From the NCBI GenBank assembly GCA_000403275.2, contig KE159600.1, positions 269,708 to 333,707 on the forward strand: 64,000 nt of DNA, written 5' to 3'. Of this stretch, positions 2,276 to 24,556 are shown in pieces. Below the pieces are notes generated by a model, which saw nothing but the letters and a program-made list of their open reading frames with translations, ran no database searches and was not told the DNA's origin. This DNA is from Lachnospiraceae bacterium 28-4 (GTDB lineage: Bacteria > Bacillota > Clostridia > Lachnospirales > Lachnospiraceae). Both the position numbers and the translations under genes were made by a program. Each line of letters begins with the position of its first letter. Position 1 is the stretch's first letter.

Positions 2276-2665
2276 CTAACAGTTGCCGCTGTCGGGGCTT
2301 TTTTCTTCTCCGTTGGTGTTACCCTGCCACAGATATTTTGCTCCGTCCAACATCCAAAGAATTGCTTTCAACATATCCTCATATGTCGTCTGTAATTCTC
2401 TGATTTCTTCGGTAGTGACCTCCGGCTTTTCGCCTTTTATCTGCTCTGCCAGTTCTTCCATACGGCTCTGCATTTCCTGCAATTTTTCCACAATCTGATA
2501 TACCGTTTCTTTCTTCCCCACCACGCATACACGATTGTAAATACAGGAACGAACAAAATAATCTTTCTTTTTCATGCCGCTTGCAAAAATCTTTGCTTCA
2601 ATTTCTTCCCGTTCTCTGGGAGAAATGCGAAAACTGATTGTTGGATATTTGTGTGTGCCGCTCAT
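2276..2665 (-). CDS. MobC-like relaxosome accessory protein, element A
   Basis: 129 residues. The N-terminal half (TISFRISPREREEIEAKIFASGMKK) looks like a ribbon-helix-helix DNA-binding domain as in MobC-type accessory proteins that help a relaxase melt oriT. The C-terminal half is Glu/Lys-rich and probably coiled coil. It overlaps the stop codon of the integrase gene by ATGA (2662-2665), so the two are translationally coupled. It corresponds in position to the 107-residue proteins of B and D but is only distantly similar to them. No relaxase for element A lies in the window. Function is inferred from family and position. Confidence 0.6.
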   Translation of the reverse strand: MSGTHKYPTISFRISPREREEIEAKIFASGMKKKDYFVRSCIYNRVCVVGKKETVYQIVEKLQEMQSRMEELAEQIKGEKPEVTTEEIRELQTTYEDMLKAILWMLDGAKYLWQGNTNGEEKSPDSGNC

Positions 2666-3747
2666 TCTTTTGTACCCTCCTTAAACTCTGCGTTCAGCAA
2701 CTCTGCCATTTGTATCTGTTCTGTCGGGAACATATGGGCGTATCGAAACGTAATATCCACGCTTTCATGCCCTACCCTGTTCCCGATTGATACCGCTGAA
2801 AATCCCATGCTGATTAACAACGAAACGTGCGAATGCCTTAAATCGTGGATTCTAATGCGCTTTACCCCTGCTTTTCCTGCCCCTCTCGTCATTTCATGGT
2901 GCAGGAAACTTTTTGTCAGATGAAAGATACGGTCAGTCGGGAGAAACCCGTACAGCCTGCCGATATACTCTTTTAATTCCTCACACAAAAAATCCGGCAT
3001 ACTGACATTTCGCTTGCTTTTCGGTGTTTTGGGGTCTGTTATCACATCTTTTCCCTCTAACCGCTGATAAGATTTTGTTATCCGAATGACCTTGTTATCA
3101 AAATCTATATCCTGCGGTGTGAGTGCTAAAAGTTCACCAACACGCAAGCCACACCAGTATAAAATTTGAAATGCTTGATAGGAATATGGCTTGTCTTTTA
3201 CTGCTTCAATGAATTTCAGATATTCCTCTTTCGTCCAAAAAAGCATTTCCTCTGCTTTCCCTTTCCCAAGCGGTCCGGCTTTGACAACGGGATTGCTCTT
3301 TAATTCGTAGAACCGCACCGCATGATTAAATAATGCGCTCAATTCAGATTGCAGAGTTTTCAGATAAGTCGGCGCATAGGGCTTCCCTTTTTCATCACGA
3401 TAGGAAATCTGCTCATTCTGCCACTGGATAATATCTTTTGCACGAATATCGCACATTTTCTTGTTCTCAAAGTACGGTAGCAATTTTGTGCGTAAGATAT
3501 GCTCCTTTGTCAGCCAAGTATTGTGCTTCAGCTTCGGCTTCATATCTCTTGTATACGCCTGCACAAATTCCCCGAAAGTCATATCCAAGTCAGCCGCTTC
3601 TTTCATGCGGAAATGATGTTCCCACTCCGTAGCTTCTCTTTTGGTTTTAAAACCTCTCTTGACTTTCCGGCAGTTCTTACCCGTCCAGTCATAATAATGG
3701 AACGATACATACCATGTTCCACGCTGTTCATCTTTATATGCCGCCAT
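2662..3747 (-). CDS. int: Tyrosine recombinase/integrase, element A
   Basis: 361 residues with the Tn916-type layout: N-terminal arm-binding domain (about 1-50), SAM-like core-binding domain (about 60-150) and catalytic domain. Catalytic residues are visible: Arg202 (CGLRVGELLALT), His301 and Arg304 (HDLRHSH), His327 (VGHES) and nucleophile Tyr336 (FRYAHMF). It should integrate and excise element A at the guaA 3' end by crossover in TCGAACTC. The start at 3747 has a strong site (AAGGAGGGCGAACT). It follows the excisionase by 12 bp and is transcribed with it from the promoter at 4000-4028. It is clearly diverged from the B/D integrases and closer in layout to C, consistent with its different end repeats. 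Confidence 0.92.
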   Translation of the reverse strand: MAAYKDEQRGTWYVSFHYYDWTGKNCRKVKRGFKTKREATEWEHHFRMKEAADLDMTFGEFVQAYTRDMKPKLKHNTWLTKEHILRTKLLPYFENKKMCDIRAKDIIQWQNEQISYRDEKGKPYAPTYLKTLQSELSALFNHAVRFYELKSNPVVKAGPLGKGKAEEMLFWTKEEYLKFIEAVKDKPYSYQAFQILYWCGLRVGELLALTPQDIDFDNKVIRITKSYQRLEGKDVITDPKTPKSKRNVSMPDFLCEELKEYIGRLYGFLPTDRIFHLTKSFLHHEMTRGAGKAGVKRIRIHDLRHSHVSLLISMGFSAVSIGNRVGHESVDITFRYAHMFPTEQIQMAELLNAEFKEGTKE

Positions 3748-3759: not shown

Positions 3760-3951
3760 TTAGTTCGCCGTCTGCGCCATGCCGTAGAATTTTTCTTCAT
3801 AATATTTTCTGCTGACACGTCCGGCGATTGTGATAAAACCTTTTTCTTCCAGTTCCTCATTCATCTGTCGTACTAATTTGTAAGCAAATGGTTTGGAAAC
3901 ACCCAACTCCTGCGCTACCTCCCCGGCAGTTACAAATAGTTCATTCCTCAT
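3760..3951 (-). CDS. xis: Excisionase-like HTH protein, element A
   Basis: 63 residues, a small winged-helix/MerR-like DNA-binding protein with VTAGEVAQELGVSKPFAYKLVRQMNEE near the N-terminus. Proteins of this size placed directly upstream of a tyrosine integrase act as excisionases that bend the element ends and direct recombination towards excision. Homologues are found at the same place in C (27154-27306) and D (35114-35293), and as a frameshifted copy in B. It is the first gene of the minus-strand operon xis-int-mobC-repA. Confidence 0.8.
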   Translation of the reverse strand: MRNELFVTAGEVAQELGVSKPFAYKLVRQMNEELEEKGFITIAGRVSRKYYEEKFYGMAQTAN

Positions 3952-3999
3952 TCAATATCCTCCTTTTTGTTTAGCGTTTTTGTTAAGCTCTGTATTTGA

Positions 4000-4028
4000 A
4001 TTATACTTAACATTTCTGTTATTGCCAA
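4000..4028 (-). promoter_or_regulatory. Promoter of the xis-int operon, element A
   Basis: On the minus strand TTGGCA (4023-4028) and TATAAT (4000-4005) are separated by 17 bp. The same arrangement occurs before xis in B, C and D. It lies among repeats close to TTTTTGTTTAAG (3964-4090), likely operators for the divergent regulator. Confidence 0.65.
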
Positions 4029-4086
4029 TAGCTTATTTGTTAAACTTATCTTTTTTATTAAATTTAGCATTTTTGATAAGTTTTTG

Positions 4087-4115
4087 TTGCTGTATTATCT
4101 GAATTATGCTAGAAT
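4087..4115 (+). promoter_or_regulatory. Promoter of the GNAT-GNAT-regulator-OLD operon, element A
   Basis: TTGCTG (4087-4092), a 17-bp spacer and TAGAAT (4110-4115). It matches in sequence and position the regulator promoters of B (17176-17204) and D (35413-35441). In A two acetyltransferase genes lie between this promoter and the regulator, so they and the downstream OLD gene appear to be under the element's own control. Confidence 0.6.
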
Positions 4116-4146
4116 ATATGGAGAATACAGAATTGAGAGGTAAGCT

Positions 4147-4620
4147 ATGGACGTAACGATACGAAAAATACAAAAACAGGAATATCCGTTACTGGATAAT
4201 TTTCTATATGAAGCAATCTTTATTCCAGAGGGTATCGAACCTCCACCCAAAAGTATTATTTCATCTCCCGAATTACAGATTTATGTTAAGCATTTCGGGG
4301 AATCCAAAGATGATTGGGGATTAGTGGCAGAGGTTGGCGGTAAGATTGTTGGAGCTGTTTGGGTTCGCATTATGAACGATTACGGACATATAGATGATAA
4401 AACGCCCTCTTTGGCAATCTCTCTTTATAAAGAATACCGGAGCTTTGGCATTGGAACGGCTATGATGAAAGAAATTCTTACCCTGCTTAAATCACATGGG
4501 TACAGTCGGGTTTCTCTTTCTGTTCAAAAAGCCAATTATGCGACAAAGATGTATTTAAAGATTGGTTTTGAGATTGTAAAGGAGAACAAGGAAGAATATA
4601 TTATGGTGTACTGCCTATAA
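4147..4620 (+). CDS. GNAT family N-acetyltransferase
   Basis: 157 residues forming a complete GNAT fold: substrate side in the N-terminal half, then the beta-strand IVGAVWVRIMND and the acetyl-CoA loop region RSFGIGTAMMKEIL (about 104-117), ending with FEIVKENKEEYIMVYCL. The acyl acceptor cannot be told from sequence. It is clearly homologous to the gene at 20637-21107 in element C, with identical blocks such as EAIFIPEG and RIMNDYGHIDD, so this is cargo shared between neighbouring elements. It is first in a plus-strand operon: 38 bp to the next GNAT, then 16 bp and 19 bp to the regulator and OLD gene. Confidence 0.85.
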   Translation: MDVTIRKIQKQEYPLLDNFLYEAIFIPEGIEPPPKSIISSPELQIYVKHFGESKDDWGLVAEVGGKIVGAVWVRIMNDYGHIDDKTPSLAISLYKEYRSFGIGTAMMKEILTLLKSHGYSRVSLSVQKANYATKMYLKIGFEIVKENKEEYIMVYCL

Positions 4621-4658
4621 CAAATTTATAAATAAATTGGAGAAAGGACATTCCATTT

Positions 4659-5165
4659 ATGAGAATCCGACCATATATACCAAGCAAAGATTACGAATAT
4701 GTATCAAAATGGATTGATGTCGAAAGAACTCATGCTTTTTGGTGTGCAAATCTTTTGCCATACCCCATGACACAAAAATCTTTCCATGATTTATTAGAGA
4801 AAAATGCAATGGACTGGACAGACAGTGCTTATGTAGCAACTGAAAACAGCGGACAGGCAGTAGGCTTCTTCTGTTATTCTGTCAATACAGCAGACAATAT
4901 TGGTTTTCTTAAATTTGTTATTGTTGATAAAACCAAACGTGGAAAAGGTTACGGAAAAGAAATGCTGAATCTGGCTCTGCAATTCGCTTTTCAGATAACC
5001 GGCGCAAAAGTGGTTCAACTAAATGTTTTCAGTAAAAACGTATTAGCAAAGCAATGTTATGAAAAAGTCGGCTTTGTTGAAAGAAAGATTGATAAAGATG
5101 TATTTGCATATAAAGATGAGTTGTGGAGCAGATGTAACATGATAATTTCAAAACAATCACTCTAA
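4659..5165 (+). CDS. GNAT family N-acetyltransferase
   Basis: 168 residues. The N-terminus RIRPYIPSKDYEYVSKWID is typical of small acetyltransferases. The acetyl-CoA binding segment KTKRGKGYGKEMLNLALQFAF is intact (about 89-109), and it is followed by the C-terminal VGFVERKID signature strand. The ribosome binding site GGAGAAAGG precedes the ATG. Substrate unknown. It is not a close paralogue of the gene before it. The order GNAT-GNAT-regulator-OLD suggests co-transcription from 4087-4115. Confidence 0.83.
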   Translation: MRIRPYIPSKDYEYVSKWIDVERTHAFWCANLLPYPMTQKSFHDLLEKNAMDWTDSAYVATENSGQAVGFFCYSVNTADNIGFLKFVIVDKTKRGKGYGKEMLNLALQFAFQITGAKVVQLNVFSKNVLAKQCYEKVGFVERKIDKDVFAYKDELWSRCNMIISKQSL

Positions 5166-5181
5166 TTTTCAGAAAGGATAC

Positions 5182-5757
5182 ATGACTATGGTATTAGGAG
5201 AACGGATAAAGAGAATACGCACGTTCCGGGGCTTGACACAGCGTGAACTAGGCTTGAAATTGGGATATGAGGAACGCAATGCTGATGTTCGTATCGCACA
5301 GTATGAATCTGGCTACCGTGTTCCCAAAAACAACACTTTAATGGAAATGGCAAAGATACTGAACGTCAATTATATCCATTTTATTGGCGTTACCCCCGGC
5401 TGCGCCGAAGATATTATGCTTACATTCCTTTGGCTTGATGAAGATGACCGTAGCACGATCCATTTATTTCAGCTTGTCCGCAATCCCGGCAAATGCAACG
5501 CTTCTGATGATAAGTCGGTGCGTTACTATGATAATGATGATTGGCCTGCTCATGCCCCAGTGGGTATGTGGCTAGAGTATGGGTTAGTCAATGATTTCAT
5601 GCGTGAGTGGTGTCTGCGGAAAGAGCAGTTGAAAAGTGGAGAGATTTCAGAGGACGAGTATTTTGAATGGAAAATCAACTGGCCTGCTACGAATAGTAGC
5701 GTTGATGAAAAAGGAAATGATAAGAAAAATAATTCTTATAATTGGCATAGAAATTAA
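5182..5757 (+). CDS. XRE-family regulator, element A
   Basis: 191 residues. N-terminal helix-turn-helix (LGERIKRIRTFRGLTQRELGLKLGY, then VRIAQYESGYRVPK), followed by a larger C-terminal domain of unknown function. It is the counterpart of the divergent regulators of B, C and D, whose C-terminal domains instead share LMHTLFALEDMYGL-like segments; this copy is the most diverged. Start 5182 lies just after AGAAAGG; ATG at 5188 is possible. It probably represses the xis-int and its own promoters through the TTTTTGTTTAAG-like repeats at 3964-4090. Control of excision is inferred. Confidence 0.78.
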   Translation: MTMVLGERIKRIRTFRGLTQRELGLKLGYEERNADVRIAQYESGYRVPKNNTLMEMAKILNVNYIHFIGVTPGCAEDIMLTFLWLDEDDRSTIHLFQLVRNPGKCNASDDKSVRYYDNDDWPAHAPVGMWLEYGLVNDFMREWCLRKEQLKSGEISEDEYFEWKINWPATNSSVDEKGNDKKNNSYNWHRN

Positions 5758-5776
5758 AGAAAGGATTTAGCAGCAA

Positions 5777-7528
5777 ATGATAACCAAAATAAACATTGAA
5801 AATTTTAAAAGCCTAAATCATGTTGAATTAGATCTAGATCGCATTAATATCCTCATTGGAGGTAACAATTCTGGAAAAACAAGCATACTACAAGCAATAC
5901 AATTTGGTTGTTCTACAATCCAAACTATAAATATTGCTACCATCATTCCTTGGCGAAAATCCAAATCAAAACCTTTTTCTCGTTCAATTGAACCATCTGA
6001 ATTAGTATACTCACCGCTTAAAGATGTTTCTGCTTTAGCACACGGCGGAGAACTAAAACAAGGTGATAAATATACAATAAAGATTTCATATAAAGATATT
6101 AATGATGATATATATTCAGTCTTTATTAAGCGAGGAAAAAATCGTAATATAGTTGCTACCATAAACAAATCCCAATTAGCCCAACAATTTACTTCTATCG
6201 ATAAACCAATGTGCGTATTTGTTCCCGGATTGGCTGGCATTCCTTATAATGAAGAATTTAAATCCGAAAGCATTGTGCGTAAAGCTGCTGCAAAAGGAGA
6301 TGCAAATGCGGTATTAAGAAATATCCTATGGTTACTAAAGCAAAATTCTAATGAGTGGAATACGTTTATAGAAGAACTTTCAAAAATTTTCCCAAATATT
6401 ACTGTTGATGTACGTTTTAACCCGCAAATAGACGAATATATTGAGGTTAAAATTATTGAACGTATTCAAATTGTCGAAGAAACTGGGAAGACAACAATTG
6501 TATGCAATTCATTACCTCTTGATGCCGTTGGTACAGGTGTATTGCAAGCAATCCAAATACTTTCATATATTAATGTGTATCACCCACAAATGCTTATTTT
6601 AGATGAACCAGATGCACATTTACATCCAAATAATCAACGCAAAATATTAAAAATGCTTTTTTCGTTAGCTGAAACCAAAAACTTTCAATTACTTATATCA
6701 ACCCATTCTCGACATCTTCTTGATATTGCAGAAGAAAATGCCAAAATAATGTGGATAAAAAATGGTTCCGTACAAGCAGAAGATATAAACTATTTAAAGA
6801 TACTATTAGATTTAGGAGCTTTAGCCAAAGGTGATTTACTTAAAAACGGACTCATAAAATGCGTAATATTAACGGAAGATTCCACAGAACGAAAAATGTT
6901 AGAACTTGTACTCCAATCCTCCGGATTTAATCTTTCCGAAACTGATATATGGTCATACAATGGTTGCACAAAAGTTGATACTGCTTTAGTGCTTGCAGAA
7001 TTTATTAAAAAACAGTCTCCTGCAACTAAAGTTATTATACATAGAGATCGGGATTATATGACTCCTGATGAAATTACAGCTTACAAAGATAAAATATGTG
7101 TTAATAATAATCTATGCTTTATAACCGCCGGATCAGATATAGAATCGTATTATCTTTCAGCAGAACATATACATTTTATTTACCCAAATAAAGATATACC
7201 TTCTGCAAGTGCTATGATTGAAAGAGCAACTAAAGAAAGAGAAGAGAAATCTATTGAAAAATATATAAATTCTCGCGATAATATTGAGCGAATTCGCCTT
7301 AGAAATGAGGGAAAATCACCGTCATATAATGTTGGAAAATTATCATTAGATTGTCGTAATAATTATTCCTCTAATCCGAATTATTATCGTCATGGAAAAA
7401 CAGTCTTAAAAGCCTTAAAGCAAATTGTACAAAATGAGATAAAGGGTGGAAAGAACCTTATATCTCCATCTTCTTTTATCTCAGATAATTCTCTTTCTGA
7501 AATTGCAAAACAGATTTGGAATAAATAA
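5777..7528 (+). CDS. OLD-family ATPase/TOPRIM nuclease
   Basis: 583 residues. The N-terminal SMC/ABC-like ATPase has Walker A GGNNSGKTS (about 28-36) and a Walker B/D-loop LILDEPDAHLHP followed by the H-loop region LLISTHSRHLL. The C-terminal part from about residue 360 is a TOPRIM nuclease, with an acidic residue in VILTEDSTERK and the DxD-like IIHRDRDYMT. This is the layout of OLD (overcoming lysogenization defect) endonucleases, many of which act in phage defence. No UvrD-like helicase lies next to it, so it is not a Gabija pair; a stand-alone OLD is most likely. It is the last gene before the attachment site, 19 bp after the regulator, and is strongly AT-rich, suggesting acquisition as cargo. 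Confidence 0.85.
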   Translation: MITKINIENFKSLNHVELDLDRINILIGGNNSGKTSILQAIQFGCSTIQTINIATIIPWRKSKSKPFSRSIEPSELVYSPLKDVSALAHGGELKQGDKYTIKISYKDINDDIYSVFIKRGKNRNIVATINKSQLAQQFTSIDKPMCVFVPGLAGIPYNEEFKSESIVRKAAAKGDANAVLRNILWLLKQNSNEWNTFIEELSKIFPNITVDVRFNPQIDEYIEVKIIERIQIVEETGKTTIVCNSLPLDAVGTGVLQAIQILSYINVYHPQMLILDEPDAHLHPNNQRKILKMLFSLAETKNFQLLISTHSRHLLDIAEENAKIMWIKNGSVQAEDINYLKILLDLGALAKGDLLKNGLIKCVILTEDSTERKMLELVLQSSGFNLSETDIWSYNGCTKVDTALVLAEFIKKQSPATKVIIHRDRDYMTPDEITAYKDKICVNNNLCFITAGSDIESYYLSAEHIHFIYPNKDIPSASAMIERATKEREEKSIEKYINSRDNIERIRLRNEGKSPSYNVGKLSLDCRNNYSSNPNYYRHGKTVLKALKQIVQNEIKGGKNLISPSSFISDNSLSEIAKQIWNK

Positions 7529-7531
7529 TAT

Positions 7532-7550
7532 AGGTATCAAAAAGGTATCA
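7532..7550. promoter_or_regulatory. Integrase arm-type repeats, right end of element A
   Basis: AGGTATCA at 7532-7539 and at 7543-7550, start to start 11 bp, one helical turn. The other elements show the same spacing with different octamers. Likely arm-domain binding sites of the A integrase. Confidence 0.55.
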
Positions 7551-7565
7551 CGCCCTACCTAAAAT

Positions 7566-7608
7566 GCCGGAAAGTCCGCTGTTTATGCGGCTTCCCGGCT
7601 TTCTGTTT
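7566..7608 (+). terminator. Terminator after the OLD gene
   Basis: GCCGGAAAGTCCGC pairs with GCGGCTTCCCGGC around a short loop (7566-7600), followed by TTTCTGTTT. It lies just before the attachment site at 7614. Confidence 0.7.
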
Positions 7609-7613
7609 ACTAT

Positions 7614-7621
7614 TCGAACTC
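7614..7621. repeat. att core copy, junction of elements A and B
   Basis: TCGAACTC, the same octamer as in the last codons of guaA (36221-36228). It is followed by CGGCGTGTTCTTTGTTG, which recurs after the copy at 28423. It marks the right end of A and left end of B. Confidence 0.75.
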
Positions 7622-8055
7622 GGCGTGTTCTTTGTTGTTCTTAACTGTATTTGTTTAAGTTTTATGCAAATACACGCCCATTTTTACATCAATTATATCA
7701 TTTATTATGGCTTGCTGATTTTCTGTTGCCAAAATGTTGCCATACTTTTATTATAGCACCCCCCACGGCATCCGCATAGCATTTTTTGTATTTTCTATGC
7801 TTTCTATTCCAAATATCACCGTAAAGTCATTGTTTCTACACAGCTCATTTCTATTTACATGATTTCTTGGCACCGTTTTGGTCCCAAAATAAGGTTCTCC
7901 TTATCCACCCTTATCACATGGTGCTAGCACCATGTATAAAGAGTATTAACAGACAATATTCATTCTATGTTCTCCGCCACTAATTCCAACACTGCCAGAT
8001 AATTTCTAACCGTATATCTCGGAAATTATACCCCTGCTTTATATGATTTAACCCA
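7622..8055. other. Left end of element B, non-coding
   Basis: It holds the arm-type repeats TGTTGCCA at 7724-7731 and 7735-7742 (11-bp spacing), matching the pair near the right end of B at 18047. A perfect 20-bp palindrome (ACATGGTGCT/AGCACCATGT) lies at 7916-7935, about 120 bp downstream of the UvrA-like gene's stop. On the minus strand 7751-7873 is open (GTG start, 40 residues, ending MRMPWGVL) but lacks a convincing ribosome binding site and may be a gene remnant. No other gene is evident. Confidence 0.6.
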
Positions 8056-10185
8056 TTAATCTTCCGTTTTTAATACTCCGCCATCATTTATTAGATATAT
8101 ATGGTTCGTAAAATAATCAAAGGCTTTTTCTTCATGGTCTACAACAATTACCGTTTTTTTCATCTCCACAAGTTTATCTAACGCCTTCATTACCATAAAT
8201 ATCTCTTCATTTCCTAATCCCTTAAAGGGCTCATCTATTCCAATGACTGGGTTCTTTGCCGTCAATGCAGACATTAGCTTTAACCTTATATTCTCTCCAC
8301 CAGATAGATGAGAAGTTTTTTCTCCGATCTGAAGATGTCCTAAAAGAAGATTCTGTGCTGATTTTAGAATTGCAAAAACTTTAGCATCAATCCCATCAAA
8401 GAATTCAACTGCATCATCTATTGTCATTAACCAAATATCCTGTATCGACTTATCGTCATATTTATATTTTTGAAGTTTTTTATCAAAACCTGTGCCGCAA
8501 CAATCCTTACAAGATAAAGTAATTTGACTTTGTGATTCAGAACCATATGTAATAATACCTGTACCAGCACATTTGGGGCACATACCTTCAGCTGTAGATA
8601 AATTAGAAAACATGGTTTTCTCTAGTTTAAATTTCTTTGCAAACATTTGAGATATACTATTCGAAATCCCCAAACACGTAGCAACAGTAGATCTTACATT
8701 TCCCCCCATCGGTTTTTGGCTAATATACAAATAATCATCAAAATACTGTGGAAAATATTCCCTTAAAAGAGTTGATTTTCCAACCCCTGAGGCTCCGGAA
8801 ATAAGATTCAATGTATTCAAGGCAATCGTGATATCTGTCCCAACATAATTATATACATTGCTCTTTAATACCATATTTATATACTTATTCGCAGGTATTA
8901 ATTCATGAGTATAAACAATACTCTGTTTATTTAAGTATTCATTCGCATCAATTAACTTTCCACCCTTTTTTCCACCACATTCTCCAAGCGCAATTATTTG
9001 TGCCGCATCATTAACAAACAGCTCATGATGATCAACTATGAGTAAGGTATGCTTTTTCTTTAATTGTAAAATATTTTTATATACTATTTCTTTTTCTTTT
9101 GATGATAATCCAGCAAGAGGTTCATCCAGAACAATTAATAAATCCGTCAATTGTGAACTAAAAACTTGGATAAGGCGTAATCGCTGTAATTCCCCACCAG
9201 ATAGAGACGGAATCGTTCTATTTAATGAAATATACCCCAGTCTTAATTCGATTGCCTTTTTTGCAAAACTTTCTATTTGATTAATCGAAAAGGCAATATC
9301 TGTACAATCGTGTTCACTTTTAACTCTATCAATCCACTTCAATAAATTATCAAAAGATAAAACTAAAATTTCACCAATTGATAAACCACATATTTTATAC
9401 TTTCGATGCCCTATTTCATATTTTTCACCACAACATTTCTCGCATAATATTTCAGAAAAAAAATCAACACTTGGTGCAAAACTTTTAAGCATAGGGATAT
9501 CAGTCATTGGACCATAGTATTGAGTTGTACGAGTAGAAAAGTGATTTGTAACTTTATATTTTATCTTATACTTAGTTTCGCTTGTTCCAAACAGTATTTC
9601 CTTTTTTTGCTTTTCGGAAAGCTGCCGAAATTTTTTGTCATAAGGAATTTTTCTATCTAAGCAAAACAGTTTTAATATTTGTTTATAAAAATCTTTGTTT
9701 TTCTTCCAACATCGTACCGGAACTTCTTCTAGTGTTTTATCATAATCAATTATTTTATATGGATCCAAGGTCTTAACATATCCAATTCCTGAACAAATAG
9801 GGCATATATTTTCAGGCTTGTTTAATACAAAAAAATCATATGGAATATTAAGTAACATAGAAAAAATTTTAGCCAGACACGGACTAATTGAAAAATAAGT
9901 AGCTACTGTAGATCTTACATTATTGTTATTATTATTCTGTTTAATTGGAATTGTAACAACCATATTTGTGTAGGAATCCACTTTATAGTCTGGTTCATTG
10001 ACTCCATCGTAATACATTGCTCCAAGTTCATGTAAACCAATCTGAGCTATAGTATCATATGCCAATGAGGATTTTCCACTTCCAGATGGACCAATAATAA
10101 GATTTATCGCATTCTTCTTTAAGCAAACATCAATATTTTTCAAATTATTTGTTTGAATTCCTTTTACAATAATGTCATCCTTCAT
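8056..10185 (-). CDS. Short UvrA-like double ABC ATPase of the peptide cluster
   Basis: 709 residues, against about 940 in true UvrA. Two ABC modules are present: Walker A GPSGSGKSS (32-40) with signature LSGGELQRLRL and Walker B VLDEPLAGL, then Walker A GASGVGKST (about 465) with LSGGENIRLKL and GIDEPFKGL. UvrA hallmarks are kept: zinc-type cysteines (CPICSGIG, CEKCCGEK, CPKCAGTG, CKDCCGTG) and a RSTVAT motif in both halves. The region between the first Walker A and the first signature is too short to hold both the UvrB-binding and the insertion domain. UvrA-like ATPases such as DrrC give self-resistance to DNA-binding antibiotics, so immunity is a reasonable role here (inference). It lies 18 bp after the radical SAM gene. 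Confidence 0.82.
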   Translation of the reverse strand: MKDDIIVKGIQTNNLKNIDVCLKKNAINLIIGPSGSGKSSLAYDTIAQIGLHELGAMYYDGVNEPDYKVDSYTNMVVTIPIKQNNNNNNVRSTVATYFSISPCLAKIFSMLLNIPYDFFVLNKPENICPICSGIGYVKTLDPYKIIDYDKTLEEVPVRCWKKNKDFYKQILKLFCLDRKIPYDKKFRQLSEKQKKEILFGTSETKYKIKYKVTNHFSTRTTQYYGPMTDIPMLKSFAPSVDFFSEILCEKCCGEKYEIGHRKYKICGLSIGEILVLSFDNLLKWIDRVKSEHDCTDIAFSINQIESFAKKAIELRLGYISLNRTIPSLSGGELQRLRLIQVFSSQLTDLLIVLDEPLAGLSSKEKEIVYKNILQLKKKHTLLIVDHHELFVNDAAQIIALGECGGKKGGKLIDANEYLNKQSIVYTHELIPANKYINMVLKSNVYNYVGTDITIALNTLNLISGASGVGKSTLLREYFPQYFDDYLYISQKPMGGNVRSTVATCLGISNSISQMFAKKFKLEKTMFSNLSTAEGMCPKCAGTGIITYGSESQSQITLSCKDCCGTGFDKKLQKYKYDDKSIQDIWLMTIDDAVEFFDGIDAKVFAILKSAQNLLLGHLQIGEKTSHLSGGENIRLKLMSALTAKNPVIGIDEPFKGLGNEEIFMVMKALDKLVEMKKTVIVVDHEEKAFDYFTNHIYLINDGGVLKTED

Positions 10186-10203
10186 GAAAGCCCTCCTTCC
10201 ACT

Positions 10204-11352
10204 TTACATTATATCCCTATACTCATCAAACTCAGGAAGAAACTTTTCTTTAATCTTCTGAATTGCAGAAATCGTATTATATACTCTATTCTCTGGGACA
10301 GATTTAGGATTTTTCAACAATCGTCTTGCTTGTAAGTCAGCAGCATATAAAGTAATTAATTTCTGCATTCTACATTTTGATTTATCTCTTTCAGTAAACG
10401 TTTTCTTTACCAAATAATTTGCACCTGGACACATAGGACACACTGGATATAAATAGCAATTAGTAAAACAATCATCATCAACAAATACAGTATGATCCTC
10501 AAAATCGGTTTTCATAATATCATTTAATTCATTTTCATCAAAAGTCATAGGTGTCACAAAAGGACATGGTCTTCTTGTTCCGTCAGTATCAAAGAAAATT
10601 GTGCCTGTACCGATACCACACCATTTTCTCTTTGGGCGATTAGGTTCTTCACACATATCAATTTGTCTACCAAGCATCTGGTCAATCATGAGTTCATCAT
10701 TTTCAACATAAAAATCAACCAACTTCTTCAATTGCGGAATAATACCCTTGATATATTTTTCATCACTCCAATCAAATTCACCCTCAAAAAGATTTACACC
10801 ATCAATCTCCTTAAATCCCAGATTATGTATATAAATCACATTATCAGCAAATCTCTTTAATGAATATTCTGAAATAGTCATCTTAACACCTTGGTTTGGC
10901 CACGTATTTTTAAAAAAATCAATATCTATTTTGTCATAAGAATTACTTCTATTATGATTATGTGTTTCTGGCAAACCATCAAGGCTTAATCCTAAAACAA
11001 AAGTGTCTTTATGCTCTCTAAACCATTCTTTCATTTCATAGTTTAGTAATGCTCCATTTGTTGTAGCATAAAAAATGTATGATTCATTTGGATATTTTGC
11101 ATGCGTATACTCATATACCTTTTTAATTAATTCATATTCTATTAATGGTTCTCCACCAATAAATGTAATTTCTACACCATTCATATCTTCAGGTGTATTT
11201 GCAAAAATCCAATCTATACTATCACATGCTGTTTCAAAAGACATTCTATTCTTTCCATCATGCTCCTGATAACAATATATACAGTCCAAATTACAACTAT
11301 GTGTAACACATAAACTTGGCGAAAATCTAATACCTTTTTTTATATCACTCAT
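10204..11352 (-). CDS. Radical SAM/SPASM peptide maturase
   Basis: About 382 residues. The radical SAM cluster motif is CNLDCIYC (CxxxCxxC, about residues 22-29), followed by the SAM-binding GGEP (in ITFIGGEPLIEYE). The C-terminal SPASM region has cysteines for auxiliary clusters in KWCGIGTG, RRPCPFVTP, DDDCFTNCYLYPVCPMCPG and KSKCRMQK. Such enzymes install thioether or related cross-links in Cys-rich precursors. ATG at 11352 is chosen because AGGAG lies 9 nt upstream; the ATG at 11361 touches the AGGAG. The gene follows the precursor by about 80 bp with a hairpin between. The closest families by description are the CXXX-repeat and Clo7bot maturases, which I could not distinguish. Confidence 0.88.
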   Translation of the reverse strand: MSDIKKGIRFSPSLCVTHSCNLDCIYCYQEHDGKNRMSFETACDSIDWIFANTPEDMNGVEITFIGGEPLIEYELIKKVYEYTHAKYPNESYIFYATTNGALLNYEMKEWFREHKDTFVLGLSLDGLPETHNHNRSNSYDKIDIDFFKNTWPNQGVKMTISEYSLKRFADNVIYIHNLGFKEIDGVNLFEGEFDWSDEKYIKGIIPQLKKLVDFYVENDELMIDQMLGRQIDMCEEPNRPKRKWCGIGTGTIFFDTDGTRRPCPFVTPMTFDENELNDIMKTDFEDHTVFVDDDCFTNCYLYPVCPMCPGANYLVKKTFTERDKSKCRMQKLITLYAADLQARRLLKNPKSVPENRVYNTISAIQKIKEKFLPEFDEYRDIM

Positions 11353-11368
11353 TATCTTCATCTCCTAT

Positions 11369-11407
11369 TAAAAAAGCTGTCAACCAATTTATATTGGAAG
11401 ACAGCTT
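11369..11407 (-). terminator. Hairpin between precursor and maturase genes
   Basis: On the minus strand AAGCTGTC (11407-11400) pairs with GACAGCTT (11381-11374), with CCAAT/ATTGG extending the stem, followed by a run of T. It looks like an intrinsic terminator or attenuator placed after the precursor gene, which would give much more precursor than maturase. Confidence 0.7.
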
Positions 11408-11431
11408 CATATACTTAATTAACGGATCAAA

Positions 11432-11626
11432 TCAGCTACCAGAACCGCTACAGCTTCTTCCGCAGTTACCAGAACATCCTGTCTCGCAACCACCGGAACA
11501 TGACTGACCGCAATTACCTGTGCAACCACAACCACTAGCGTAATATATTTCACCAGCTAAAGCAGGCTTGTAGTTAACTTTCAGGCTTTCCAAAGCATTA
11601 AGTATAGTGTCATTCAAAAGTCCCAT
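11432..11626 (-). CDS. Cys-x3-repeat RiPP precursor peptide
   Basis: 64 residues with an excellent ribosome binding site (AGGAGG, 8 nt before ATG). Residues 1-32 form a plausible leader (MGLLNDTILNALESLKVNY, then a small-residue stretch). Residues 33-64 are a core with eight cysteines at 33, 35, 39, 43, 47, 51, 55 and 59: after an initial CxC every cysteine is exactly four residues from the next, separated by Gly/Ser/Asn/Thr-rich triplets such as TGN, GQS, SGG, ETG. The tail is SGSGS. The regular C-x3 pattern next to a SPASM enzyme is typical of rSAM-modified Cys-rich peptides; thioether links are predicted but not shown. No peptidase or exporter gene is adjacent. Confidence 0.85.
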   Translation of the reverse strand: MGLLNDTILNALESLKVNYKPALAGEIYYASGCGCTGNCGQSCSGGCETGCSGNCGRSCSGSGS

Positions 11627-12329
11627 AAGTGTAACCTCCTTTATAAAATTAGAACAAATTTATCATATCATAATATGCTTCGTGTGTCAAGATTTGCCAT
11701 TTCAAAACTTGCCAAAATATTTTTTCTCTTTTACATATCAAAACCTTTATTTATAAGGCTTTTCGTTTATTTTTCTCTTACCAACTTAACATTGTGTGTT
11801 TTATCAAAAGCACCCTCAAAGCCTTTATTTTCGGCACTTTCTCAAAATATATTTTACAGATTTTCACTTTTCAAAAAAATTCGAATTTTGTAATATCTCC
11901 TTTTTGAAAATATAAATGGTAGCTACATTGTGATTTATCATTTTACATTCAACCATTAACGTTCTATTATTAAATTCCTTGATTATAACTATTACTCTTA
12001 GTCTTTTCCTTTCTTCAGGATTTCTCTTATTAGCAAAAAGGCGTGCAAGCCTAAAATGATAGAATTTACACGTCTTTTCTTTTTCAATATTCACTTATCG
12101 TCTTCTATATCTTCTTGCATAACATCCTGACTATAACTACAATAGTGTTCCTGACTTATCCGCTTTTATTGGATTAATATCAAGAAGTATTTCATCAGAC
12201 ATTGAGCCTTTCGCCTTTAAAGACATTAAATATGATATCTTCTACGGCATCTCCTTCATACTCTATCAGAAATCGTCACATACCATGTATGTTTTCCTTC
12301 GTACACAGCAATCGCCACACCCACATGTC
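11627..12329. other. AT-rich stretch with decayed coding fragments
   Basis: No convincing intact gene. On the minus strand 11864-12094 is open (76 residues, GTG start, Lys/Arg-rich) but unrecognised. Immediately upstream, short overlapping fragments follow each other: a frame ending EGDAVEDIIFNVFKGERLNV (near 12215), one starting MSDEILLDINPIKADKSGTLL, and one ending SQDVMQEDIEDDK (near 12096). The broken frames look like remains of a former gene. The promoter of the precursor peptide must lie in 11627-11750. Confidence 0.35.
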
Positions 12330-12665: not shown

Positions 12666-14036
12666 CTATCGGCTCATTTCAAAGGCACGTTTCGGGCGTT
12701 TCTTTGCCCTTTCTGCCTGTTCTAACGCCTTTGACCGTTCCACTATCAACTGTACCTGTTCCTTGCCTAAATGACGCTCCAAACGCCTCAAATCAGACGC
12801 TTTTTCCTGCAATCTGTCTATGGTGTTGCTCTGCTCCATGACCTTATCCGTCAAGCGGCTAATCTGTTTTTGTTGCCCGTCCATTTTGGCGGTCAGCTTC
12901 TTGCTTTGCTCCGTAAGCTGTACGCATTTAATAGTCAGATTTTTTACCACTTCTTTCAATTTCTCCACAAGCGGAAGTGCCTTTTTATCCCGATAATTTT
13001 TTGCACTCATCAATGCCCCCGGCTCTGGTAACTGCCATTTTACATCTTCATCATAGGCGTGTATATTTCTCTCCATAACTTCCTTTGACTGTACCATTTT
13101 GTTGATTTCCTGCTGTAACTTTTTCTGCTGTTTCTCCAACTTCTCATTTTCAGATAACAGCTTTTCTTTATCCTCTGTCAGCGTTTCCGTCTGCTCTTTC
13201 AGCAGATGATTTGTTGCGGTAAGTTCCGATACTTCCTGCCGGATCGCTTCGCCCTCTTTCCGTATCTGTTCCGTTTCCTGTCCTGCCGCTATCTGCTGAT
13301 GAAAAATGTCAGATAATTCCTCTTTACTGCTGGAGATTGTCTGTTCCAGTTCGGCAACCTCTTTCTGCCGTTCCTGCTTCTCAAAATCGAGTACGGACAA
13401 ATGCTTGTGATGTGTGCCTAACTGCTTCCACTGTACGCCATGCCGCCCCATGACTTTTGAAAGTTCCTGCTTCTCCGCTTCAATCCATTCATTCCATTCC
13501 GTCATTCCCCTTGTGCCGCCTTTGAAACCCTGTTCCGACAATGCGCCTTTGAGGGAAACTCTCGTATCAAGTCCACGCTTGCTGTTACGGATAAAAGGGA
13601 CAAAATCAATGTGAATGTGCGGTGTCTGCTCGTCCATGTGCAAGTGACTTGAAAAAACGTATAAGTTCGGATTTCTTTTCTGAAACTGCTCCATAAACTC
13701 GCATAAAATATCTTTCGCCAACTGCCCCTCATTGCTCTGCACGTTCATATCGTTCTTGTTGCCGATTTGAAAGATTACCTCATAAAATAATTTCTCCTGC
13801 TTTCCCTGGCGTATCTTCTCATAGTAATCGTCAATCTTTCGGTCACTTCGTTTCTGCTTTGCGTTGTAGCGTTCCAGTGCTTCATCAAAAAGATTGTGAT
13901 AAACCTCTTTTATATCCGAGTGGCAAAATTCCACGTTATCCCGGCTTCGTTCCTTATCTACATTCTTTGCGCTAAAGGCTCTTGTATTGTGATTGACCGA
14001 GCCTTTCCCCATCATGCCGCTAATCGTCCTTTCCAA
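12666..14036 (-). CDS. mob: MobV-type relaxase (Mob/Pre family), element B
   Basis: About 456 residues. The N-terminal half carries the family signature GKGSVNHNTRAF and the histidine triad motif HMDEQTPHIHIDFVP, in which the three His coordinate the metal at the nicking site. The C-terminal half is a long coiled coil (about 230-440). The enzyme would nick oriT and stay bound to the strand during transfer driven by a helper conjugative element. A TTG start at 14036 is preferred: GGAGG lies 9 nt upstream and the resulting MERTIS matches the N-terminus of the D relaxase (MKRTIS). The candidate oriT lies directly upstream. The coiled-coil half differs strongly from those of C and D. Confidence 0.85.
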   Translation of the reverse strand: MERTISGMMGKGSVNHNTRAFSAKNVDKERSRDNVEFCHSDIKEVYHNLFDEALERYNAKQKRSDRKIDDYYEKIRQGKQEKLFYEVIFQIGNKNDMNVQSNEGQLAKDILCEFMEQFQKRNPNLYVFSSHLHMDEQTPHIHIDFVPFIRNSKRGLDTRVSLKGALSEQGFKGGTRGMTEWNEWIEAEKQELSKVMGRHGVQWKQLGTHHKHLSVLDFEKQERQKEVAELEQTISSSKEELSDIFHQQIAAGQETEQIRKEGEAIRQEVSELTATNHLLKEQTETLTEDKEKLLSENEKLEKQQKKLQQEINKMVQSKEVMERNIHAYDEDVKWQLPEPGALMSAKNYRDKKALPLVEKLKEVVKNLTIKCVQLTEQSKKLTAKMDGQQKQISRLTDKVMEQSNTIDRLQEKASDLRRLERHLGKEQVQLIVERSKALEQAERAKKRPKRAFEMSR

Positions 14037-14095
14037 TAGGCATATCCTCCACATTCTAAATACTGATTTTACTGCGCCGAAAGGCGCAAGGCTTT

Positions 14096-14313: not shown

Positions 14314-15447
14314 TTACGCTTTCGGCTCTAGCCGTTTCAGAATAATTTTTCTTTCATGCCCCCGCTTGTTGTCGTAGAAAATGCCGTAGTCATTAAGCAA
14401 CTGGCTGTTCACTACATTTAATCTCCGGGAAAGCACATTCGCCGACAACTGCATATCCGGCAACTGTTTCAGAAGTTCCGTTGCTGTCCCCTCCCACTCC
14501 TGCATTTCCTCTGTCAGAAATTCGTTGATTGCTTCAAGTAACGGATTGGGCGGCTGTTTCCAAAGTTCCGTTTCTGCTTTCTGAAATTTCCAAATACATT
14601 GTTCCCGGTCAAATTCGATTGTCAGTTCTTGATCGGGCTGGTCACGCCCCACAATATCCATGACCGCCGTGTTGTCTGTGCGTTTTTTCTTGTGCATGAT
14701 AAACGCCCCGTCTGCCGCACCAAGAAGTCCGTTTGTACCGGAAATCATATCAAAGCTGTCCTCGGACTCCAACTTGCGGGTGTGGTGAACCACCAACAGG
14801 CAGACACCGTATTTATCGCTGAATGATTTCAGCTTTGTCACAATCTCATAGTCACTGGAATAACTGTACCTGTCCCCGCCGACCTCACGCACCTTTTGGA
14901 GCGTGTCGATGATAATCAGCCTTGCGTCCTCATGCTCTTTGATGAAGCCCTCCAATTCTCCGTCCAATCCCTCATTCAGTGTCTTTGCCTGCGTTGCAAA
15001 AAATAGATTGTCCGCACACTCCACGCCAAACATGACGGACAGCCGCCGCTGAAGCCTTGCATAATCATCTTCCAGTGCAAGATATAGCACCGTCCCTTTT
15101 CGGACGGGATAATTCCACAGCGGAAGCCCCATAGCCACATGGTAGGCAAGCTGCCCCATAAAGAACGATTTCCCCACTTTCGGCGCACCCACAAAGAGAT
15201 AAGTGCCGCCATACAGAAAGCCGTCCACAACAGGCGTTCTAGGCGGGTAGACCGTATCATACAGTTCTGTCATGGAAACGGTTTGAAGCCCGCCGCCCTG
15301 CCCGGATTTCTCCGGGCTTTTTGTGGCTTGCAGATTGTTTTTTGCTGTTTCATTTGCTATAATTTCAGTGCGATTTTTCATAATTGGCTGTTCCCCATCT
15401 GCGCCAACAGATGATACGGGAGCAGTCGATTTCATTTTATTTGTCAT
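14314..15447 (-). CDS. RepA-like AAA ATPase, element B
   Basis: 377 residues. After a variable N-terminus (about 1-55) comes an AAA_25/RecA-like core with Walker A GAPKVGKSF (87-95), a Walker B region ARLIIIDTLQKV and the sensor-like LLVVHHTRK. This resembles hexameric helicases of the RepA type; in mobilizable elements such proteins are thought to support replication of the excised circle. The C-terminal part (about 300-377) resembles a winged-helix domain. Its start overlaps the stop of the MobC-like gene (ATGA, 15444-15447). It is very similar to the D protein at 32551-33687, differing mainly at the N-terminus. Confidence 0.75.
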   Translation of the reverse strand: MTNKMKSTAPVSSVGADGEQPIMKNRTEIIANETAKNNLQATKSPEKSGQGGGLQTVSMTELYDTVYPPRTPVVDGFLYGGTYLFVGAPKVGKSFFMGQLAYHVAMGLPLWNYPVRKGTVLYLALEDDYARLQRRLSVMFGVECADNLFFATQAKTLNEGLDGELEGFIKEHEDARLIIIDTLQKVREVGGDRYSYSSDYEIVTKLKSFSDKYGVCLLVVHHTRKLESEDSFDMISGTNGLLGAADGAFIMHKKKRTDNTAVMDIVGRDQPDQELTIEFDREQCIWKFQKAETELWKQPPNPLLEAINEFLTEEMQEWEGTATELLKQLPDMQLSANVLSRRLNVVNSQLLNDYGIFYDNKRGHERKIILKRLEPKA

Positions 15448-15771: not shown

Positions 15772-16854
15772 TTAGTCCTCCTTTGTCATTCTCTCCATTT
15801 CCAATTTTTCCGCCATTTCTGTCTGTACCGTAGGGAACAAATGGGCGTAACGGTAAGTGATTTTCTCCGCTTCATGCCCCATGCGCTCCCCAATCGCTAA
15901 TACCGAAAATCCCATGTTGATTAAGAGTGAAACCGCACTATGGCGAATATCGTGGACACGGATTTTCTTAACGCCTGCCTGCTTCGCCCCTCTCTCCATT
16001 TCGTGATTGAGATAGGATTTTGTAACCATAAATAAACGCTCGTTCGGCTTAATGTCATAAAGCATTTTGATGTACTCCTGCATTTCCTCACACAGAAACG
16101 GCGGCATTTTGATTGTGCGGTTGCTCTTTTTCGTCTTAGGGCTTGTGATAATGTCACGCCCTTTGGAACGGTGGAAAGTCTTGCTGATCGTGACTGTCTG
16201 TTTCTCAAAATCAATATCAGCAGGCGTTAAGGCAAGGAGTTCGCCGGAACGCATACCGCACCAGTAAAGCATTTCAAACGCATAATAGGAACGGGGCTTA
16301 TCCATCATGGCTTCGGAAAATTTCAGATATTCCTCTTTCGTCCAAAAGTCCATTTCCTTGACGGCTTCGCTCCCAATCGTACCCGCCCGCCTTGCCGGAT
16401 TGTAAGGAAGATTATAAAAGTTTACCGCATGGTTAAATATCGCCGTCAGTTGTGCGTGTATCGTCCTCAAATAATCTGCGGAATAGGGCTTTCCTTTCTC
16501 GTCCCGGTAAGCCATCAACTCATTCTGCCACGCTATCACGTCCTTTGCTTCAATCTCTGCGATTTTGCGGTTTTCAAAGTACGGTAAAATCTTTGTCCGT
16601 ATCACATGGCTTTTGGACTCCCAAGTGCTTTCCTTGACACGCTGTTTCTTGTCGGCTTCGTACACTTCAAAGAAACTGCCGAACGTCATATCCAGTTTTG
16701 CGCCCTGCTTTAACATGGCTTCATGCTCCCACGCCTGCGCTTCCCTTTTGGTTGCAAATCCCCTCTTTTGTGTCTGTTTCCTCTCCCCTTTCCAGTTGGT
16801 AAAGCGGTAGATAACCCGCCACGTCCCCGTAGCGTTGTCCTTGTATACAGCCAT
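15772..16854 (-). CDS. int: Tyrosine recombinase/integrase, element B
   Basis: 360 residues with arm-binding, core-binding and catalytic domains. Catalytic set: Arg202 (CGMRSGELLALT), His301/Arg304 (HDIRHSA), His327 (MGHEA), Tyr336 (YRYAHLF). It matches the D integrase at all but about seven positions (for example R/K at 117), so B and D should recombine at the same sites and share the TGTTGCCA arm repeats. Start at 16854 follows AAGGGAG. The xis reading frame just upstream is broken. Confidence 0.92.
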   Translation of the reverse strand: MAVYKDNATGTWRVIYRFTNWKGERKQTQKRGFATKREAQAWEHEAMLKQGAKLDMTFGSFFEVYEADKKQRVKESTWESKSHVIRTKILPYFENRKIAEIEAKDVIAWQNELMAYRDEKGKPYSADYLRTIHAQLTAIFNHAVNFYNLPYNPARRAGTIGSEAVKEMDFWTKEEYLKFSEAMMDKPRSYYAFEMLYWCGMRSGELLALTPADIDFEKQTVTISKTFHRSKGRDIITSPKTKKSNRTIKMPPFLCEEMQEYIKMLYDIKPNERLFMVTKSYLNHEMERGAKQAGVKKIRVHDIRHSAVSLLINMGFSVLAIGERMGHEAEKITYRYAHLFPTVQTEMAEKLEMERMTKED

Positions 16855-17386: not shown

Positions 17387-17947
17387 ATGGCAATCGGCAA
17401 ACGTATCCGCTTTTTCCGCAACCGAAAAGGCATGACACAGAAACAGCTAGGCGAAATCCTCGGTTTTCTCGGAAAGACCTCTGATGTCCGCATGGCACAG
17501 TATGAAACCGAAGCGAGGACGCCGAAGCACGACCTTGTAAAAGAAATGGCGAATATCTTTGATGTAAGCACCCACGCCCTTACCGTGCCGGATATTGATA
17601 CCTATACCGGGCTTATGCACACGCTCTTTGCACTGGAAGATATGTACGGGCTGAAAATCGGGGAGATTGACGGAGAAATCTGCCTGCGCCTTGACAAGTC
17701 CGACTATTCCACTTATACGTCCATGTTCGATATGTTCCACGCATGGCAGGAGCAAGCCGCCAAACTGGAACAGGGCGAGATTACCAAAGAGGAATACGAC
17801 CAGTGGCGGTACAAGTACCCCGAACTGGACACTTCAAAGCATTGGGCGAAAGTCCCCTCACAGGCGGTCAGCGATATGCTTATGAAAGAATTTCAGAAAA
17901 TCGAGAAAGAAGAAAAGAAAACAGCTAAAAAGGAAAAGCAGAAATAA
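17387..17947 (+). CDS. XRE-family regulator, element B
   Basis: 186 residues. N-terminal helix-turn-helix (IGKRIRFFRNRKGMTQKQLGEIL and VRMAQYETEARTPK), then a conserved middle segment (GLMHTLFALEDMYGLKI), a WRYKYPEL motif and a Lys/Glu-rich tail. It is transcribed divergently from xis-int and followed by a terminator. Homologues occupy the same place in C and D. It is likely the switch controlling integration and excision, with GTTTAAG-type repeats as operators. Start at 17387 has CGGAGG at good spacing. Its leader contains the 133-bp insertion, which may alter translation. Confidence 0.82.
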   Translation: MAIGKRIRFFRNRKGMTQKQLGEILGFLGKTSDVRMAQYETEARTPKHDLVKEMANIFDVSTHALTVPDIDTYTGLMHTLFALEDMYGLKIGEIDGEICLRLDKSDYSTYTSMFDMFHAWQEQAAKLEQGEITKEEYDQWRYKYPELDTSKHWAKVPSQAVSDMLMKEFQKIEKEEKKTAKKEKQK

Positions 17948-18128: not shown

Positions 18129-18136
18129 TCGAACTC
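18129..18136. repeat. att core copy, junction of elements B and C
   Basis: TCGAACTC preceded by TTCATCAC exactly as at the guaA stop codon (36213-36228), so the guaA-proximal flank is duplicated here. Confidence 0.75.
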
Positions 18137-18365
18137 GACTTTTCCCAACTAATTTTGTTTAGATATTATTCTCTGTCGAGTATGTAAATCTTTTGATTAT
18201 TTGATATATCCATATTATCCTGCCTATATCAGCTAATGTTATCATTTTGTTATCACTGTTGATAACATTGGCTGTGTAACTGCGGATAATAGCTATATGC
18301 TATGGTTTAAATTATAAGCGATTTTATTTAGAAAAGCAACATCCTTTTATCAATAAAAAATCTAC
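18137..18365. other. Left end of element C, non-coding
   Basis: It carries TGTTATCA at 18237-18244 and 18248-18255 (11-bp spacing) and an inverted copy TGATAACA at 18260-18267, matching TGTTATCA pairs at the right end of C (28341, 28352). No gene seen. Confidence 0.6.
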
Positions 18366-19532: not shown

Positions 19533-19551
19533 AATTTCTCCTTATCTTGTT

Positions 19552-20409: not shown

Positions 20410-20437
20410 TATCTCCAACCACTTTCTTTAGCACAGA

Positions 20438-20613: not shown

Positions 20614-20636
20614 TTACAAATACCCTCCCCATCACA

Positions 20637-24555: not shown

Positions 24556-24556
24556 G

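Follow-up and report, generated by a model that had tools for sequence, protein, structure and literature searches.

The 64,000 nt of the Lachnospiraceae bacterium 28-4 genome analysed here (contig KE159600.1, positions 269,708 to 333,707; referred to as the window) include a three-gene cassette for a Cys-rich precursor peptide, a radical S-adenosylmethionine (SAM) maturase and a short UvrA-like ATPase. That the cassette encodes a DNA-acting modified peptide together with UvrA-like self-protection is the reading we prefer, and we hold it with about even confidence. The radical SAM enzyme would cross-link the eight Cys of the precursor, giving a rigid product of the thioether type that binds DNA or damages it. 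The UvrA-like ATPase would attach to the affected DNA via its basic insertion domain and remove the peptide at the expense of ATP, with no need for UvrB or excision, so that the producer and its element would survive; the cassette is carried as mobile cargo. The modification of the peptide and its chemistry, DNA as the target, protection by the ATPase and the victim (a rival cell or a phage) are what we infer here.

In total, eight cassettes were found, with four sets of maturation enzymes: a PapB/CXXX-like radical SAM protein (three), a FibroRumin radical SAM protein (one), a pair of ThiF proteins (two) and a pair of radical SAM proteins (two). As the maturase varies among them, the UvrA-like protein is the constant partner, and because this partner is kept while the peptide chemistry changes, DNA as a shared target is the best explanation. 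A single UvrA clade is a marker of very small peptide cassettes across four phyla, Bacillota, Spirochaetota, Campylobacterota and Pseudomonadota. Should the preferred reading hold, DNA would be the common target of Cys-rich ribosomal peptides with several chemistries, and peptide, self-protection and perhaps phage defence could all be tested together in a cassette of three or four genes.

The cassette and its counterparts in other genomes

The three genes are all on the minus strand in the order precursor, maturase, UvrA-like gene, separated by 70 and 18 nt (Table 1). A preliminary description made from the sequence alone had drawn this operon-like block, and all three genes were found where it had placed them; it had also held that the block includes no exporter or peptidase, and a Pfam scan of the larger open reading frames (ORFs) of the surrounding element gave neither. 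Its account of the precursor was right in the CxC and the spacing of four (C33-x-C35, then C39, 43, 47, 51, 55 and 59) and needed correction in the count, which is eight Cys in all, seven of them at spacing four. For the maturase, GGAG touches the upstream ATG and the relative in a second genome (L034, below) begins at the second ATG, so the second ATG is the more likely start.

The maturase matches Pfam Radical_SAM at 45.9 bits (cut-off 29.5), which bears out that part of its earlier naming as a radical SAM/SPASM enzyme; no Pfam SPASM match was listed, and the SPASM label is based on matches below cut-off to NCBIfam maturases of SPASM type, together with C-terminal Cys. A short precursor with a conserved core beside an enzyme of a peptide-modifying type is the arrangement of a ribosomally synthesized and post-translationally modified peptide (RiPP) locus, with the modification predicted. 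The best NCBIfam match of the maturase, covering nearly the whole model, is PapB (NF047865), and membership was rejected at 132.7 bits (cut-off 340). PapB cross-links CX3D in its own substrate, whereas the window core is devoid of CX3D, having no Asp and one Glu that is not at a CX3E. The window peptide shares with the CXXX-repeat system a Cys at every fourth residue (C35 to C59), and the maturase model of that system, TIGR04115, is the second best match; membership was again rejected, at 120.9 of 350 bits for the maturase and 18.9 of 50 bits for the peptide (TIGR04117), and to our knowledge a UvrA-like partner is not part of the system. The comparison with Clo7bot that the preliminary description had called for was negative (TIGR04334, 42 bits, cut-off 600). 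FibroRumin TIGR04136 was not among the best 25 of 70 maturase matches and had no match in the window genome at 1e-80, and with respect to FibroRumin TIGR04135 only TIGR04117 was listed among the matches of the window peptide. AlphaFold models of the maturase and the UvrA-like protein (mean pLDDT 55.8 and 45.1, respectively) were too poor for fold searches.

When a genome collection of 84,980 species was scanned with the UvrA-like protein in a pattern-based search, five loci were found; in two, the similarity covers nearly the full length, and both of these have the same three genes in the same order. The first (L034), from a Clostridiaceae metagenome-assembled genome (MAG), shares 91 % identity in the precursor, 88 % in the maturase and 68 % in the UvrA-like protein, and the second (L035), from a Treponema MAG, 58 %, 57 % and 53 %. 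Hence, the co-occurrence check by genome neighbourhoods that had been proposed found the UvrA-like gene with precursor and maturase in both other genomes, which favours the proposed pairing. Non-synonymous and synonymous substitution rates (dN and dS) were estimated by NG86, and the window and L034 are the only pair for which dS could be estimated for all three genes, dS being saturated or undefined for most pairs with L035. The dN/dS values are 0.041/1.24 for the precursor, 0.089/1.35 for the maturase and 0.25/5.1 for the UvrA gene (dS saturated). As dN is far below dS, all three genes are under purifying selection, and since the Cys core and gene order also recur in two other genomes, the cassette is not a chance assembly.

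Two further features of these loci were noted. In L035 (502-793), the Cys core of the precursor is out of frame with the ATG located after a purine-rich stretch, which may be a sequencing error or real, and the precursor start could therefore not be placed. The UvrA genes of the window (8056-10185) and L034 (2036-4162) are far more diverged than the maturase genes of the same cassettes, and identity at third codon positions (0.465 for UvrA vs 0.623 for the maturase) hints at recombination between the cassette halves.

On plasmids, 61 records had a UvrA match, of which 20 were listed and six neighbourhoods were opened (H5, H6, H7, H9, H13 and H19), and three of the six held peptide cassettes. 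The best match, 47.5 % identical and orthologous, is on plasmid p16187MP2 of Campylobacter sp. RM16187, where a pair of FibroRumin precursors and a FibroRumin maturase (707 bits, cut-off 400) immediately precede it. A mobilization gene lies about 1.2 kb off; PLSDB nevertheless types the plasmid as non-mobilizable. The FibroRumin system, like that of the window, combines a Cys-rich peptide with a radical SAM maturase, and in the Campylobacter case an orthologous UvrA; it differs in its maturase and precursor families and in having at least one locus (G873) with no UvrA neighbour. The next two matches are on Moraxella osloensis and Acinetobacter johnsonii plasmids typed as mobilizable, where the order is a peptide of 63 or 66 amino acids (aa), two ThiF proteins and the UvrA-like gene (L053, 1550-6154, and L056, 526-5121). 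These peptides have four or five Cys and a conserved CCTRxCTR stretch, and the UvrAs of the two plasmids are 52 % alike. A comparison with solved structures covered two of the four ThiF proteins, and for both the best relative was MccB and the next a different protein, PaaA. The ThiF cassettes are unlike the MccB and PaaA systems in that their precursor contains Cys and shares its operon with a UvrA-like gene and the genes for two ThiF proteins, and we know of no description of this cassette type.

The fourth kind was found at ordinary short UvrA loci, which were screened for a CxxxCxxC motif no more than 1.5 kb away; own-genome loci were excluded. Radical SAM genes lay on both sides of the UvrA gene at one of 29 loci in one screen and one of 18 in the other (G069 and G955). 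In both, a 33-aa ORF with the core AKCGxGPCGRPC lies in front (68 % over 28 residues between the two), and the order is Cys peptide, radical SAM, short UvrA, radical SAM (L048, 6517-11568, and L077, reverse complement, 3828-8915). Motif matches at L074 and L076 were dropped by eye as radical SAM candidates, and one in genome G1341 (L067) was not counted because it had no NCBIfam match at 1e-20. We take this last neighbour to be a U32-type peptidase and the protein on the other side of the UvrA gene to be an ATP-grasp protein. A short UvrA between two such genes may be another small-product cluster with a UvrA. Relatives (40-42 %) of the first radical SAM protein of the two-radical-SAM cassettes are present on conjugative plasmids of E. 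coli, Salmonella and Photobacterium (L079, L080, L081 and L082), with a recombinase gene preceding the radical SAM gene in three of the four; in the stretches shown from the four records opened out of seven, no UvrA was annotated, the gene tables being incomplete.

Lineage and build of the UvrA-like protein

In trees of 39 and 17 proteins, which included the UvrA of a Streptomyces plasmid and left out Ecm16 and DrrC themselves, the six UvrAs from the first three kinds of cassette form one group with 100/100 support, and the grouping holds with and without the longest row. The Campylobacter UvrA lies inside the radical SAM group beside that from Treponema (98/90 and 94/89, and 87/83 in a 15-row tree), and the window UvrA falls not with ordinary short UvrAs but in a clade of its own with the ThiF-type UvrAs. 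A warning from the tree program that joins between long branches can be spurious counts against this grouping, and shared residues were counted for that reason. Twenty-two positions are identical in all six UvrAs and present in at most 10 % of the 33 others, and when the ThiF pair was replaced by seven hand-picked control pairs, zero to three such positions were shared. A five-column gap behind window residue 64 is also common to all six and is filled in six of the seven other rows shown; the UvrA of a two-radical-SAM cassette fills it but for one column. The UvrAs of the two-radical-SAM cassettes (777 aa), represented in the tree by one of the pair, fall outside the six-member group, and the pairing may therefore have arisen more than once.

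The window protein scores above the Pfam cut-offs for ABC_tran and UvrA_DNA-bind (PF17755, residues 141-227, 46.5 bits, cut-off 23.2), confirming it as a UvrA-like ATPase, and at 323.5 bits is below the cut-off (729.8) of the excinuclease UvrA model TIGR00630. The UvrB-binding domain is missing, with profile positions 111 and 115 aligning to residues 115 and 263 of UvrA 3pih, and there are only two zinc modules, module 1 being absent. The ATPase motifs are intact and invariant across four orthologues. Modules 2 and 3 have spacings of 117 and 20 residues, the same as the figures given for Ecm16 in passages of PMC10192343. Thus, the analogy to DrrC drawn in the preliminary description holds as far as build is concerned: like the self-resistance proteins Ecm16 and DrrC, the window protein has two ABC halves, these zinc modules, an insertion domain and no UvrB-binding domain, and is encoded alongside product-making genes. 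It is shorter than Ecm16 (709 aa vs an 812-residue chain in 7sh1) and differs from both in its basic insertion domain, its separate clade and its ribosomal Cys-rich peptide partner, and a resistance role would be by analogy. The same passages report that Ecm16 protects E. coli with or without UvrB, including in a uvrB knockout, and that its insertion domain is required for DNA binding. Among 12 hand-chosen proteins of the 39, the insertion domain has an isoelectric point (pI) of 8.0-9.5 in six cassette members, vs 4.9-5.8 in six others including the host's own UvrA.

Competing explanations

A pairing of a UvrA-like protein with a RiPP peptide was not found described in searches of open-licence literature on RiPPs and radical SAM enzymes, FibroRumin, self-resistance, genome mining and DrrC, bacteriocin immunity or anti-phage systems. 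According to passages of PMC10413001, uvrA-like genes serve as markers of actinobacterial gene clusters for small-molecule DNA intercalators, and RiPPs are named there as one of eight classes of cluster, a different class being pursued.

A number of observations weigh against a DNA-acting peptide with UvrA-like protection. Relatives of the maturase occur without a UvrA neighbour in G332, on a Phocaeicola plasmid and in G656 (where the contig ends 0.8 kb behind the maturase), no UvrA is found among the ORFs of the FibroRumin locus in G873, and 45 of the 47 ordinary short UvrA loci have no radical SAM neighbour within 1.5 kb. The cassette is also rare, the window genome being the only one to carry it among 16 genomes of the genus, 398 of the phylum (UvrA search) and 299 of the family (at this level of identity). 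Directly beside the cassettes, neither an exporter nor a leader peptidase was seen (judged outside the window from annotation or ORF lists, not profile searches), which would be unexpected if the peptide were a secreted toxin; the Campylobacter plasmid encodes a type I secretion system elsewhere. In the Campylobacter protein, the spacing of zinc module 3 is shorter than in the others. Finally, variation in the insertion domain is not a simple reflection of the core peptide. Across six pairs of the four radical SAM-type members, some with different cores, its identity is 0.47-0.72 vs 0.48-0.68 overall, and L035 and L042, with different core peptides, share 0.53 vs 0.49 overall. The ThiF pair alone shows the variability of ordinary short UvrAs (0.37 in the insertion domain vs 0.52 overall, compared with 0.40 vs 0.65 and 0.36 vs 0.54 in two ordinary pairs). 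This conservation speaks against a reader specific to one lesion.

In the whole-genome searches, the centre genome is included in every count. The maturase was found in one of 16 genus genomes and three of 398 phylum genomes (its own, G656 and G332), and the UvrA at 1e-120 in one of 398, one of 145 and one of 146 genomes in three sets. A looser UvrA profile matched 19 of 146 order genomes, 18 of them with ordinary-looking short UvrAs. The FibroRumin maturase was found in one of 291 class genomes and in none of 145 from the Treponema family, where the control also matched nowhere and absence is not proven. Five scans of viral contigs with the maturase, the UvrA and their alignments gave no relative, though short exact patterns can miss relatives. 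Among phage records, 28 had a UvrA match, with at most 30.3 % identity among the 20 listed and no peptide maturase in the one neighbourhood opened, and the ThiF query gave no match.

Ordinary short UvrAs are nonetheless common cargo, as shown by the 61 plasmid records and by the 30 of 299 family genomes, the window's own included, that match the UvrA at 1e-60, raising the question of whether the UvrA-like gene is an unrelated passenger or has another role, such as repair of damage from radical chemistry or element transfer. We regard this as very improbable, as the clade lies directly behind Cys-peptide and maturase genes in all six places where it was found, in four phyla. It is also distinctly improbable that the UvrA-like protein serves maturation or handling of the peptide, as an ATP-driven chaperone or carrier, rather than acting on DNA. 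Its gene is the last or middle one of the operon and overlaps or nearly touches the maturase gene in most cassettes, and it tracks the peptide rather than one maturase, as such a role would predict, but maturase relatives occur without it, and its DNA-binding domain and zinc modules are kept.

As there is no exporter, the victim may be external, a rival cell, or internal, either a phage or a cell from which the element was lost. The latter would allow a mobile anti-phage defence, in which a compact clade of UvrA-derived ATPases would be combined with interchangeable Cys-rich peptides, modified by radical SAM or ThiF enzymes, that act on intracellular DNA, an idea we entertain only tentatively. 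The peptide would stay in the cell and poison phage DNA, while the ATPase would keep the chromosome clear or bring the peptide to foreign DNA; that the peptide is a weapon and the ATPase a guard telling own from foreign DNA, with cassettes travelling in defence islands, some beside BREX, we likewise consider rather doubtful. Two of the eight cassettes, of different type and with UvrAs on different branches, adjoin BREX genes. The cassette on Acinetobacter plasmid pXBB1-8 starts 0.7 kb after a BREX-1 locus (brxL; PglX, 1488 bits), and that of G955 is 2.4 kb behind BrxC, PglX, KwaB, BrxHI, PglZ and BrxA, with a 421-aa ORF and small ORFs in between and a weak SIR2 match on the other side. This adjacency is suggestive only. 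The elements flanking that of the window carry an NsnB/AriA/AbiLi/Old-like ATPase and a candidate PADLOC system (below), and the lack of an exporter also fits. On the other hand, the remaining six cassettes have no known defence system directly beside them (among the cassettes, PADLOC covered the neighbours at the window, G069 and G955, and the contig of L034 has a length of 4.8 kb) and are found with transposase-like ORFs (as at L034 and L035), integrase or toxin-antitoxin genes. Defence genes gather on mobile elements generally and, according to PMC12715929, near lanthipeptide clusters; a PbeA-like helicase lies near the FibroRumin genes of G873, which have no UvrA, and defence-type neighbours are therefore not special to the UvrA cassettes. 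The cassette proteins had no PADLOC system match beyond generic ABC and radical SAM similarity (139 bits to mad3 for the ATPase, 48 bits to pVip for the maturase). The literature search gave no such system, though passages of one paper mention a UvrA-like gene on an Acinetobacter plasmid, there not tied to a peptide. As a whole, we view anti-phage defence as a possible but rather unlikely function.

An addiction module, in which cells losing the element would have their DNA poisoned by the unexported peptide and carriers would be kept alive by the UvrA-like ATPase as antidote, appears improbable. The window, plasmid and G069 cassettes are in a mobile setting with no exporter beside them, and toxin-antitoxin genes on the Campylobacter and Moraxella plasmids show that such cargo is common there. 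However, a 700-aa ATPase would be an unusual antidote, there is no sign that peptide and ATPase differ in stability, and a mobile setting fits any cargo.

The mobilizable element and its surroundings

The coordinates of the cassette and of the element that carries it are in Table 1.

Table 1. Features of the cassette and the element around it (positions in the window)
Feature	Position	Strand	Remarks
Left attachment (att) core TCGAACTC	7614-7621	+	
Short UvrA-like ABC ATPase	8056-10185	-	709 aa, without UvrB-binding domain
Zinc module 3 of UvrA-like protein	8500-8580	-	C536, C539, C559, C562
Insertion (DNA-binding type) domain of UvrA-like protein	9445-9792	-	Residues 132-247, basic, pI 9.5
Radical SAM peptide maturase, PapB/CXXX-repeat-like	10204-11361	-	Likely start 11352
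Stem-loop then U-run, possible attenuator	11367-11408	-	Between precursor and maturase; shuffle comparison
Precursor peptide	11432-11626	-	64 aa, eight Cys (CxC, then every fourth residue)
Promoter-like site TTGACA-17-TATGAT	11662-11690	-	TG before second hexamer; consensus scan, 11/12 matches
Relaxase (Mob_Pre)	12666-14054	-	Pfam
AAA_25 ATPase of element	14314-15447	-	Pfam
Tyrosine integrase of element	15772-16854	-	Pfam
Helix-turn-helix regulator	17387-17947	+	Right end of element
Right att core TCGAACTC	18129-18136	+	In guaA-end-like stretch
att core in last codons of guaA	36221-36228	+	

Copies of the att core TCGAACTC start at 7614, 18129, 28423 and 36221, four in the whole window and none on the other strand, the last of them being in guaA (GMP synthase, 766.6 bits). 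The 20 bases spanning the end of guaA recur at 18119 with one mismatch, a 133-bp repeat (90 %) begins at 7611 and 28420, and an integrase-bearing 3-kb stretch is repeated at 86 %. From these att copies and repeats, three related elements appear to lie in tandem at the 3' end of guaA. On the sequence evidence, the cassette is cargo of a 10.5-kb element that extends from 7614 to about 18136. This element has the integrase, relaxase and guaA-end-matching att repeats of an integrative mobilizable element, its mobility being predicted from the genes. The relaxase matches Mob_Pre at 66.7 bits (cut-off 25.5), with only 44.6 of 100 for NCBIfam MobV. The designation as a mobilizable element thus stands, and the proposal that the cassette is spread by mobile elements is supported. 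The borders of the element, the other types of maturase and the neighbouring defence genes are additions to the preliminary description.

Mobilizable elements related to one another occupy window positions 1-36228 in tandem at the guaA 3' end, every one carrying separate cargo, and an extra integrase gene at 2662-3747 suggests that another runs off the left end of the window. The neighbouring element (18129-28423) carries a KilA-N protein that matches the PADLOC candidate PDC-S22 (410.8 bits) beside a DUF4062 protein (18366-20418). Just left of the cassette's element (5182-7528), a helix-turn-helix regulator is followed by a 583-aa AAA ATPase (5777-7528) like NsnB, AriA, AbiLi and Old (best match 102.8 bits), a possible defence gene.

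The promoter-like site ends about 35 bases upstream of the precursor start codon. The region has no excess of sites of this type over shuffles (26 vs 25.4). The stem-loop between precursor and maturase was not called in a terminator scan of the region and is more stable than shuffles (z -3.20, with 2 of 200 shuffles as stable). In the same place, L034 has a stem-loop with a similar stem (z -3.98) and L035 one of other sequence (z -3.72), and the three align poorly with one another. The stem-loop is possibly an attenuator that would keep the peptide level above that of the enzyme.

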